From: Symmetrospora coprosmae
Taxonomy: Eukaryota; Basidiomycota; Cystobasidiomycetes; Symmetrosporaceae
Direction of reading: 5' to 3'
Length of the DNA: 64,000 nucleotides
NCBI GenBank assembly: GCA_008802785.1
Contig: VUYT01000053.1
Span: 1 to 64,000, forward strand
Made by a program: the position numbers and the translations under genes. Of the stretch, positions 45,533 through 49,262 are shown one piece after another (position 1 is the stretch's first letter; each line of letters begins with the position of its first letter). The notes under the pieces are model-generated. The model was not told the origin of the DNA. It made no database searches and saw nothing but the letters and a program-made list of their open reading frames with translations.

Positions 45533-46560
45533 ATGTACGGCAAGGCGGGACATACTCGTGGGGGGAGTGTGGGGTGGTGCTGACGCAGTCCGGGCCCCGC
45601 AGGCCTCTCGCCAAAGAGTCCCACCCCAGCTCGAAGGTCTTCGACCTGATTGCAGACAGCCTCACCAAGGTCGGCCTGGACGGCTAACAGATTGCGCTTG
45701 TGCGTCAGGTAGGCTGACGCGATGTACCCGCAGATGAGTGCCAGCGAGAAGAAGGACACCCTCAAGAAGGTGAGGTCGCGACCGGCATGATCGGGACTCC
45801 AGGAGAGAGCTGCAGCTCCATTGCGGAAAGGGCGACGCACAGATCATCAAGCTGACTAGTGGTGCTGCTTGATGCTTTCCCTTACGAATGAAAAAGGTGA
45901 ACGGCATTTTCGAGATGCGAATCACGAACGCCCAGGGACAGGCCGAGTCGTGGATCATCGACATGAAGAAGGTGTGGAGACAAAGCAGCTCATAGCCTGC
46001 GCAAATCCGATAAGTGATGAGTCTCACTCCGCTCCCATCTGCTGACACCGCTCGCGTTGTTGCCCCGCTGTGGTTACTGGCACTTGCGCCACCCGGTACC
46101 GCCCACAGGAGGGTAAGGTCATCAAGGTCGACAGCACCACGCCAAAGATCAAGCCCGACGTCACCATCAACTTGACGGACGATGTCTTTCAGCAGCTCTC
46201 GGACGGTAAGCTCAACGGCCAGAAGATGAGTTCTACAGTCCTATCCAGAGCGTTTCCAGCCGGCTGGCGGCAGGCTCTCTGAACACGCTTGCTGACTTCA
46301 TCTGGCCCCGCTCCATCCGTTCGCGCTCTTCACGCCTTCATGAGCGGAAAGCTCAAGGTCAAGGGCAATATCATGCTCGCTACGAAGGTAAGAAACTTCT
46401 GTGCCTGTATGAGCCCCGCAAGCCAGCTGACTGAATGGCGCACTCACTCCGACTTTCAGCTCGATACAGTCCTCAAGGTGGGTCAGACTGGTAGCGGGCT
46501 CCACGTACAGACTGAAGCTAAGCGGTCTCTCGCTTGCAGAATGCGCAAAGCAAGCTTTAG
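45533..46560 (+). CDS. Peroxisomal SCP2-domain lipid-transfer protein
   Basis: Eight exons: 45533-45534, 45603-45669, 45734-45769, 45897-45971, 46109-46225, 46334-46387, 46460-46477, 46540-46560; 129 aa, phases close. The start codon is split: AT before intron 1, G after it, giving MPLAKESHPSSKVFDLIADSL. The SCP2 fold is clear: VNGIFEMRIT, SWIIDMKKEGKV, KPDVTINLTDD, QLSDGKLNGQKAFMSGKLKVKGN, MLATKLDTVL. The last three residues are SKL, a PTS1 peroxisome import signal. SCP2 domains bind acyl-CoAs and sterols for beta-oxidation. The join of KLNGQK to AFMSGK uses an intron that begins AT and ends AC (46226-46333); no AG exists in the usable interval. Seven introns in 129 codons. With PEX6 it is the second peroxisomal gene in the window. 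Confidence 0.93.
46226..46333 (+). other. AT-AC intron (U2-type look) in the SCP2 gene
   Basis: Exon ends CAGAAG; the intron starts ATGAGT, has CTTGCTGAC at about 46288-46296, and ends CTCTTCAC before exon GCCTTC. From 46274 to 46333 there is no AG, and the acceptors before that lead into a stop, so no GT-AG reading restores SCP2. The donor resembles GTGAGT with its first base changed, unlike the U12 ATATCC form. Confidence 0.8.
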
Positions 46561-46645: not shown

Positions 46646-49262
46646 TCATTCTACTTGCAGAGCTCTAAGCTTCTGCTGCAATTTCTTCGCATAGTCCGAA
46701 TCCTGTTGGCGTGCGACGGTGCTCATCAGGCTGTGCAAGAGACGGCGCTGAAGGTTCGCAAGCGTCATGTGACTCACGGCTGTCTTGTCCGCCAGCGCCC
46801 GGTTGAGGTACACCTCGGCCAGCGCCAGATCTCCGAGGACTCTCCCCTGCCCTGCTGAGAGGTGGTACTCGCCCATCTCATAGGCAGCAAGGAGGGCATA
46901 GACCTCGACGTACTCGTTGGAGGGCAGCTCCATAGCGACGGCAGTCTCGATCAGGCGAGACCAGTACAGGGCCGCTTGTTCGAAGAGCTGCATCGAGTGT
47001 GACTGGTCACCTAGCTTGCGCAGATTCGAGATGTCGTCAGGCTCGGCGAAAAGCTGCGCTCGCTTGTAGCATTTGAGCACTTCGTGTGGTCTGTTGCGGG
47101 GAAAATATTGCGTCAGGAAGAGGTGCTTTTGGCAGGCTTAGCCGCGCAAACTCACTTGGCGAGGCGAGCGTAGCATTGACCCAATGCCTGCCACATTCGC
47201 GAGTCAAAGGGCCTGCAGTAATCGACAAGTACTTCAGCACGACGGATCCCACTCGCTGCTGTCTGAAATGGGGGCTCACCGGAGTGCAGTCGCCCGCTGA
47301 AAGTATCGCAGCGAATAGGTCTGCATGCCTAGCAGCTCGTATGCCTGTCCGAGGCCGTACCACGCGCGATAGTCCTTGCTATTGACGTCTGCAGATGCGC
47401 CACTCTACGGTCAATGACAATCCAACAGGCAGTACCGCCCCATTCTTCGTACTCACCGCAAGCGCGCCGGTAACTCTCGATAGCCGCGTGCGTATTTGAC
47501 ATCTCGACGTACTCGTGACCCATAAGCGTCCAGGCTGCCAGGTAATGCCGATCCAGCTTGATGGCGCGACGGAAGAGCGCGACTGCCTTCGCATGCTCTC
47601 CTCGGATGGAGTAGTAGTTGCCTATTGGCGAGAGTGATGTCAGACATGGCCAATGGTGATGAGCTGCGCCCGTTGAGCTGGGCACTCACCCATCAAACAG
47701 CAGGTTTCCGGCCGGTTCCGATCGATGGCCGCATAGCGCTGCGCGACCTGCGACAGCTTGCCTCGCTTGCCCATAACGTAAAGTATGTTACTGTACGTGT
47801 CGAGATCCTCGAAGCGCATCGGATGCACCTCGGCGATCTCATCGAAGAGGCGCTCTGCAGCTTCGAACTCTGTGCGTAGCGCATCAGATAAACGCACGAG
47901 AGATCAGCATCCGGACTGTTCAGACTGCAGATGCACTCGAATGCACCTCGAAGGTGATAGTGAACGAGAGCTTGCTGCGAATGTAGGTGTACGCTGTTCG
48001 GGAAGCGCTCTGCCAGCTGATCGATGCTGTGTCTGAGGTCCTCCGACGCGCGGTGCACCTCGAGCGTTGCGTGTATGTTGAACATCTGGGCCATGCACGA
48101 CTCGGGCAATTGGGGTATCAAGGCAATGAGCTGATTTGTGGACAAATGGCAGCGATAAGCACAGTGCGTCAGCCAGCTGAGTCGATACGACCCAAGGGTC
48201 TGCGGCCATCTACCCACTTCCTCCTCCCCGTCCAGCACTTCAGCCAGTCGCGTCCACACCGACCAGTTGTACGGAAAGATAGTGACGGACTGCACCAGAT
48301 GGACGATGGCTTCTTCGCGCTTGCCCAGGTCATAGAGGACGAGCCCTTTCCTTTAGATACAGTCAGCAGTCTCAGTCTCTGCACATCCGGACCTCGGCTT
48401 GGATGACAGCCACGTACAAGTATATCAGAAAGGGATCATCGCGCGCATCGAGCTGGCCGGAGAGCTCGAGCAGTGCCGTGGTATGAGCAGGGTCGAATGT
48501 GGCTGGTGGGCGGCCGTCCGAGTCTGTCCCCGTAACGCGGGTTGGATCAGATGAAGCTGTCGGGTACACGGCAGAGGCGGGGGAGCGGCTCACCAGCAGG
48601 CTTGACTGCGAGTGCAGACATCTCCGACGAAATGCCCTGTGCGCAATCACGCAACCCATGTCAGCTGAAGTGGCGAGGGCGTTCTAGGGGAGGTGGATGC
48701 ATGCGCACCAGGTATCGCGCATACAGGCAGACCCAGCGGGTCTTTGCATCGGCATTCTTGTCGAACAGCGAGGCGCAGCGCTTGTATTCCCGCGAGTCGA
48801 GGTAGGCCTTGGCCAGCAGGTGCTTGTCCGTTGACGTCGAGTCCGAGCTGAGCTGGAAGGCTGATGGAGTGGGTCAGGCTAGGTCGGCATTGGTGCTTCG
48901 CGTCGTCCCATTGCAGCGGGCAGGGCAGTCCGCTCACGCGTTGGCGCGGTTCCAGCAGTAGCGCTGCTTGTCCCCGTCATCTGGGCATCTTGGTCTTCTG
49001 ACGCGGCTGAAGCAGCGCGGTCAGGCTCGGGCAGGCCGTGCAGCAACTCGACCAGCCTGCGTGGACGCCAAACCGAATGCCGTGTAGCAGGATCTCACTG
49101 GTCAATGAGCTGGACGCATGCTGGTTGTGCTGCCTGTCCTCCCGCTCCTCACCATCGCGTCGCGTTCACAAGACCGCGCTCTGCCAATTCACGTGTTGCG
49201 GCTCTCAGGGTTGAGGCCAGGACGCGAGGATGCTCATGAGCAGCGAAAGATACACCAGCCAT
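46646..49262 (-). CDS. CDC23: Anaphase-promoting complex subunit CDC23/APC8
   Basis: Twelve exons: 49153-49262, 48938-49056, 48709-48860, 48594-48636, 48418-48523, 48218-48350, 47947-48130, 47690-47869, 47457-47621, 47280-47388, 47156-47212, 46646-47090; 600 aa. The N-terminal block ([21 protein letters not shown]) is that of Cdc23. TPR arrays follow, with [85 protein letters not shown] and [12 protein letters not shown], the conserved Cdc23/Cdc16/Cdc27 TPR lines. Cdc23 is a scaffold TPR dimer of the APC/C, the ubiquitin ligase that starts anaphase. Length is close to yeast Cdc23 (626). The join after exon 4 could instead use a nearer acceptor, adding ten residues, but that intron would be only 37 nt. 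Confidence 0.93.

Follow-up and report, generated by a model that had tools for sequence, protein, structure and literature searches.

How coding exon 5 of the SCP2 (sterol carrier) gene is joined to exon 6 is the question that this locus raises, because the boundary between them resists any conventional GT-AG solution. We analysed a stretch of 64,000 nucleotides (the window), which contains an intact SCP2 gene at positions 45533-46560 of the plus strand, with eight coding exons. In our gene model, the coding sequence spliced from these exons comprises 390 nt, including the stop codon, and specifies 129 amino acids. The spliced product matches the Pfam SCP2 family (PF02036) with 89.3 bits over residues 26-123 (cut-off 21.3), a match that spans the exon 5/exon 6 junction and bears out the SCP2 identity given in the initial annotation.

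Six of the seven introns carry GT-AG ends, and all features lie on the plus strand. The coding part of exon 1 (45533-45534) consists of the two bases AT of the start codon, which is interrupted by the 68 nt intron 1 (45535-45602, GTACGG...CAG) and completed by the G at 45603, the first base of exon 2 (45603-45669). Joined in this way, the protein begins with MPLAKES, to be compared with MPLARES in P0001, its nearest relative. Intron 2 (45670-45733, GTCGGC...CAG) has a weak donor that scores 0.10 outside positions +1 and +2 (GTCGGC at 45670-45675) against a median of 3.0, with its GT kept. It is followed by exon 3 (45734-45769), intron 3 (45770-45896, GTGAGG...AAG), exon 4 (45897-45971), intron 4 (45972-46108, GTGTGG...CAG) and exon 5 (46109-46225), which ends in phase 0 with KLNGQK. 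Exon 6 (46334-46387) starts with AFMSGKLK, and the gene is completed by intron 6 (46388-46459, GTAAGA...CAG), exon 7 (46460-46477), intron 7 (46478-46539, GTGGGT...CAG) and exon 8 with the stop codon (46540-46560). The exons were taken from the gene model, to which the junction enumeration described below added support for exon 5 and the Pfam match of the product for exon 8; exon 6 was set by the enumeration.

The edges of intron 5 (46226-46333, 108 nt) read CAGAAG/ATGAGT (46220-46231) and TTCAC/GCCTTCATG (46333/46334), so that the last codon of exon 5 is AAG at 46223-46225 (K) and the first codon of exon 6 is GCC at 46334 (A). We enumerated all cuts with donors at 46115-46299 and acceptors that follow the donor by 30 nt or more and lie no further than 46387, allowing any dinucleotides and keeping the outer exon borders 46109 and 46387 constant. 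Among the 5811 cuts that keep the frame and are free of stops, a single one yields the conserved ...KLNGQKAFMSGK... (QK/AFM), namely that with AT at 46226 and AC at 46333. None of the 40 frame-keeping, stop-free cuts of canonical type in this enumeration (21 GT-AG and 19 GC-AG) retains AFM. For comparison, we aligned 22 SCP2 relatives, hand-picked from 120 listed among 246: the junction reads QKAFM in 20, QKGFM in one (P0016) and QRLFM in one (P0088), and none of the 22 has an insertion at this position. The two closest proteins among the matches listed, P0001 (source jgi, 83% identity) and P0002 (source merc, 77%), are continuous across it.

The single solution in the enumeration, together with this alignment, upholds the claim of the initial annotation that joining KLNGQK to AFMSGK requires an intron beginning with ATGAGT and ending with CAC, and its claim that no GT-AG intron can work there holds in that all 21 frame-keeping GT-AG cuts drop AFM. 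Inspection of the sequence also bore out that 46274-46333 has no AG and that the last preceding AG (46272-46273) runs into a TGA at 46280-46282 in the frame of exon 6. The probability of the four terminal letters of intron 5, given its composition, is 0.002. A twintron built on GT-AG introns was considered and rejected: it needs an AG, or at least a G, right before GCC, where there is a C and no AG across 46274-46333.

To describe the splice signals, we trained a gene model on two pieces of this genome, the window and 200 kb of its contig C1; the training sequence thus contains the window. The model consists of a coding-frame model, matrices for donor, acceptor and branch site, and length distributions, and it makes no use of homology. 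It returned 438 introns in 120 genes, of which 382 introns belong to the 85 genes with a score of 15 or more, and the matrices and comparisons are based on 310 GT-AG introns whose neighbouring exons measure 45 nt or more. Among these, the most frequent donor is GTGAGT, in 69, the most frequent branch hexamer is GCTGAC, in 94, and CAG is the end in 272 of the 310.

Against this background, both internal signals of intron 5 stand at the maximum of their matrices, in agreement with the initial annotation, which had described the donor as GTGAGT-like with its first G changed and the branch site as U2-like. The donor AAG/..GAGT scores 5.81 outside +1/+2, a value that no canonical intron attains (0/310), and the branch site TGCTGAC has a score reached by 25 of the 310. 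Its GCTGAC hexamer lies at 46291-46296 and places the branch A at 46295, at a distance of 38 nt from the last intron base (canonical median 24, 5-95% range 15 to 39.6), and the length of 108 nt falls inside the canonical 5-95% range as well. Downstream of the branch site, no AG occurs before the 3′ end and no AC precedes the terminal one; in canonical introns an AG occurs in this interval in 76 of 310 cases and an AC in 237. When the letters of intron 5 were shuffled, an equally good donor score at +3 to +6 arose at a frequency of 0.0028 (20,000 shuffles) and an equally good branch score at 0.002 (first 4,000 shuffles).

Restricted to GT-AG and GC-AG introns, the gene model breaks SCP2 in two precisely at intron 5: one half ends with the TGA at 46282, the next starts with the ATG at 46340, and each scores 13.4. 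Once an AT-AC class was added, the model chose 46226-46333 with a gain of 13.7, the top-ranked AT-AC site. With the same AT donor, it gave an AT-GC end at 46324 a value of 14.2, an AT-CA end 13.1 and an AT-CC end 13.0. Because AT-GC at 46324 outscores AT-AC, the model by itself locates the donor and not the 3′ end, and the AT-GC, AT-CA and AT-CC ends are excluded solely by the protein alignment.

The initial annotation had also proposed a search for other AT-AC introns. In the 264 kb formed by the window and the 200 kb of C1, the model gave two AT-AC hits: intron 5 of SCP2, with 13.7, and one with 7.7 at C1:5183-5353. A further 16 hits came from 19 other end-pairs; six overlap SCP2 intron 5, five of them using its donor, and the ten elsewhere reach up to 10.7. 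Because other end-pairs reach such values, the hit at C1:5183-5353 lies within their range and was not credited as a second AT-AC intron. No further convincing AT-AC intron was thus found in the 200 kb of C1 by a scan with a sensitivity of about 44%: only introns with a gain of 6.9 or more can register as hits, and 169 of the 382 predicted introns reach this value (121 of the 278 on C1). At this power, the scan shows only that AT-AC introns are not common in the 264 kb.

The enumeration, the protein alignment and the genome-trained splice model all uphold the U2-type AT-AC intron first proposed for SCP2. We consider it likely, with a probability of roughly 0.88, that 46226-46333 is a real AT-AC spliceosomal intron removed by the major (U2-dependent) spliceosome. 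The alternative that survives best, though improbable, is an error of sequencing or assembly that conceals a true intron GTGAGT...CAG. A single assembly stands behind the sequence, AAG/GTGAGT would make an ideal donor, and no acceptor is more frequent than CAG among the canonical introns. Such an error, however, demands two independent substitutions at exactly both terminal positions, which moreover would have produced the one well-known alternative pairing; the surrounding exons are intact and in frame. The initial annotation had likewise argued that two non-canonical ends speak against a single sequencing error.

Marginally less probable still is a recent splice-site change in the strain, by which the RNA would be retained or cryptically spliced and SCP2 impaired. 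Retention of intron 5 meets the TGA at 46280-46282, and a GT-AG cut at 46252-46344 preserves a long protein in which AFMS is replaced by MSSTVLSRA. The remainder of SCP2 is nevertheless intact, with its conserved residues present, and a single change of the first G to A would leave a 3′ AG, whereas the intron ends in AC. The donor context and branch site at their maxima also speak against such a change.

The ends AT-AC are typical of U12 introns, so removal of intron 5 by the minor spliceosome had to be weighed; we regard it as very unlikely. U12-type introns have the donor consensus ATATCCTT and the branch consensus TTCCTTAAC. The donor of intron 5 matches the former at three of eight positions and is not U12-like, and its best match to the latter is six of nine, which would put the branch A as far as 50 nt upstream of the intron end; its predicted branch site is a perfect match to the U2 branch motif of the genome itself. 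Elsewhere the U12-type motifs are stated as ATATCC and CCTTAAC (PMC3033335, in the part consulted).

Two U2 genes, which contain GUAGUA, and a U6 gene, which contains ACAGAGA, are present in the genome, whereas U6atac, U12, U11 and U4atac gave no match in it. Nor was there a match in the genome to PDCD7, which we take to be a U11/U12 protein family. The search for U11 and U12 that the initial annotation had suggested thus came out negative, but its models were silent in all 14 control genomes, as were the PDCD7 family and likewise the U2 and U6 models. The Rfam U1 model found no U1 gene in this genome, although U2 and U6 were detected; its U1 may be divergent from the Rfam model. Because U1 was also missed, the negative result for U11 is weak, and because none of the 14 control genomes was matched and U1 was missed, we grade the absence of the minor (U12-class) spliceosome from this genome as likely and not higher. 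The two U2 genes (C75:428760-428946, minus strand, and C75:425984-426152, plus strand) are separated by about 2.6 kb and point in opposite directions; they are similar over most of their alignment and divergent at the 3′ end.

The literature on fungi bears on both sides. In the parts consulted, one survey finds that neither Ascomycota nor Basidiomycota have convincing minor introns (PMC10639083), and another reports the loss of minor introns in Basidiomycota (PMC2846911). In favour of a minor spliceosome, U12-spliceosome RNA genes were found in one fungus, Cutaneotrichosporon oleaginosum (PMC7072748, in part), a basidiomycete of another subphylum, and U4atac was noted in the rust Phakopsora pachyrhizi, where it was taken as a possible remnant (PMC2846911, same part).

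That the AT donor is used with another non-AG 3′ end, such as the GC at 46324, is barely credible in spite of its higher model score, as three residues (ALH) would be inserted between K and A where none of the 22 aligned relatives has any, and it is for this reason that the alignment sets the 3′ end at 46333.

As a U2-type AT-AC intron, intron 5 belongs to a known kind. U2-dependent AT-AC introns are said to form a divergent AT-AC subclass (Wu and Krainer, 1997; Dietrich and colleagues, 1997) and reportedly need the major-class snRNAs (Wu and Krainer, 1997). Intron 5 resembles them in its AT-AC ends, U2-type donor and U2-type branch site, and appears to differ from them in nothing basic; it lies in a basidiomycete gene, and its donor context and branch site could not score higher for its genome. 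With U12-type AT-AC introns it shares the terminal dinucleotides and neither the ATATCCTT donor nor the TTCCTTAAC branch. Most likely, judging from these signals, it is a member of the U2-dependent subclass, a rare but already known one that has been described even in the absence of U12. The description of such introns as very rare in the initial annotation agrees with a share of 0.019% for AT-AC among annotated fungal splice pairs (PMC7072748, in part), although the kind as such is not new. A few AT-AC introns could be expected in a genome with thousands of introns.

Three published cases invite comparison, each as given in the part of the source consulted. In Caenorhabditis elegans, which seemingly is without U11, U12 and U4atac and so shares AT-AC introns in the absence of a known minor spliceosome, 59 AT-AC introns were identified, of which at least 42 are suspected to be real and are probably U2-processed; that set came from an automated procedure with inspection of alignments, whereas the SCP2 intron was recognised from protein conservation and splice signals (PMC3033335). 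In a GFP reporter in Arabidopsis, as in SCP2, only removal of a U2-type AT-AC intron yields a translatable mRNA; there the AT-AC intron encloses a competing GT-AG intron and accounts for only about 17.5% of wild-type transcripts, and the authors suggest that AT-AC may be the weaker set of sites, a caution for the SCP2 intron too, although in SCP2 no GT-AG alternative preserves the protein (PMC5473141). In the basidiomycete rust P. pachyrhizi, two introns listed as 'other AT-AC', not classed as U12-type, stand beside 571 U2 introns (561 GT-AG and 10 GC-AG), a likeness by class alone (PMC2846911). In the open-access literature we found no earlier report of a basidiomycete SCP2 gene with an AT-AC intron.

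A plausible course of splicing can be sketched from these signals. U1, and then U6, would pair with the strong donor despite the A at +1, and U2 would pair with the strong branch site GCTGAC. The first AC downstream of the branch site would serve as the 3′ end, AG being absent. Because the first and last bases of an intron interact in the second step of splicing, as is known from yeast and mammals, the A in first position could be accepted jointly with the C in last position. The strong donor and branch site presumably offset the poor termini of an intron that probably derives from a GT-AG intron through changes at both ends. A scan of IMG/VR for DNA of relatives at the intron 5 site gave 16 pattern matches, none of which was confirmed.

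The intron adds a clean case to the rare and already known AT-AC class: an intron with A first and C last, an optimal donor context and an optimal branch site, apparently handled by the major spliceosome, in a phylum where none of the minor introns considered in a large survey proved convincing. The case is consistent with the view that poor termini can be paid for by strong pairing at the donor and branch site, and it opens this view to testing. A further-reaching possibility, which we find doubtful though not negligible, is that the major spliceosome, as the only one of this lineage, tolerates AT-AC ends wherever donor and branch site are near-perfect, in which case the SCP2 intron would be an evolved, compensated state and not a passing mutation. 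If so, a scattered set of AT-AC introns would have been missed by gene predictors in this lineage. In practical terms, a gene finder confined to GT-AG introns cuts SCP2 into two genes.

The initial annotation had pointed to smuts as relatives, a term that probably does not apply if ustilaginomycetes are meant. The closest organism-named SCP2 proteins among the matches listed are from Rhodosporidiobolus lusitaniae and Sporobolomyces salmonicolor (69% identity each). For the neighbouring Cdc23/APC8 gene, the two best matches by E-value are from Mixia osmundae (48%) and a partial protein of Cystobasidium minutum (64% over 58% of the query), followed in third place by Botryobasidium (42%). Because the named nearest SCP2 relatives and the top two for Cdc23 are Pucciniomycotina (looked up for three of the four species), the fungus probably, as far as protein similarity tells, belongs to that group. 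The Cdc23/APC8 gene itself (46646-48980, minus strand, 11 predicted introns) lies tail to tail with SCP2, and the stop codons of the two genes are 85 bases apart.
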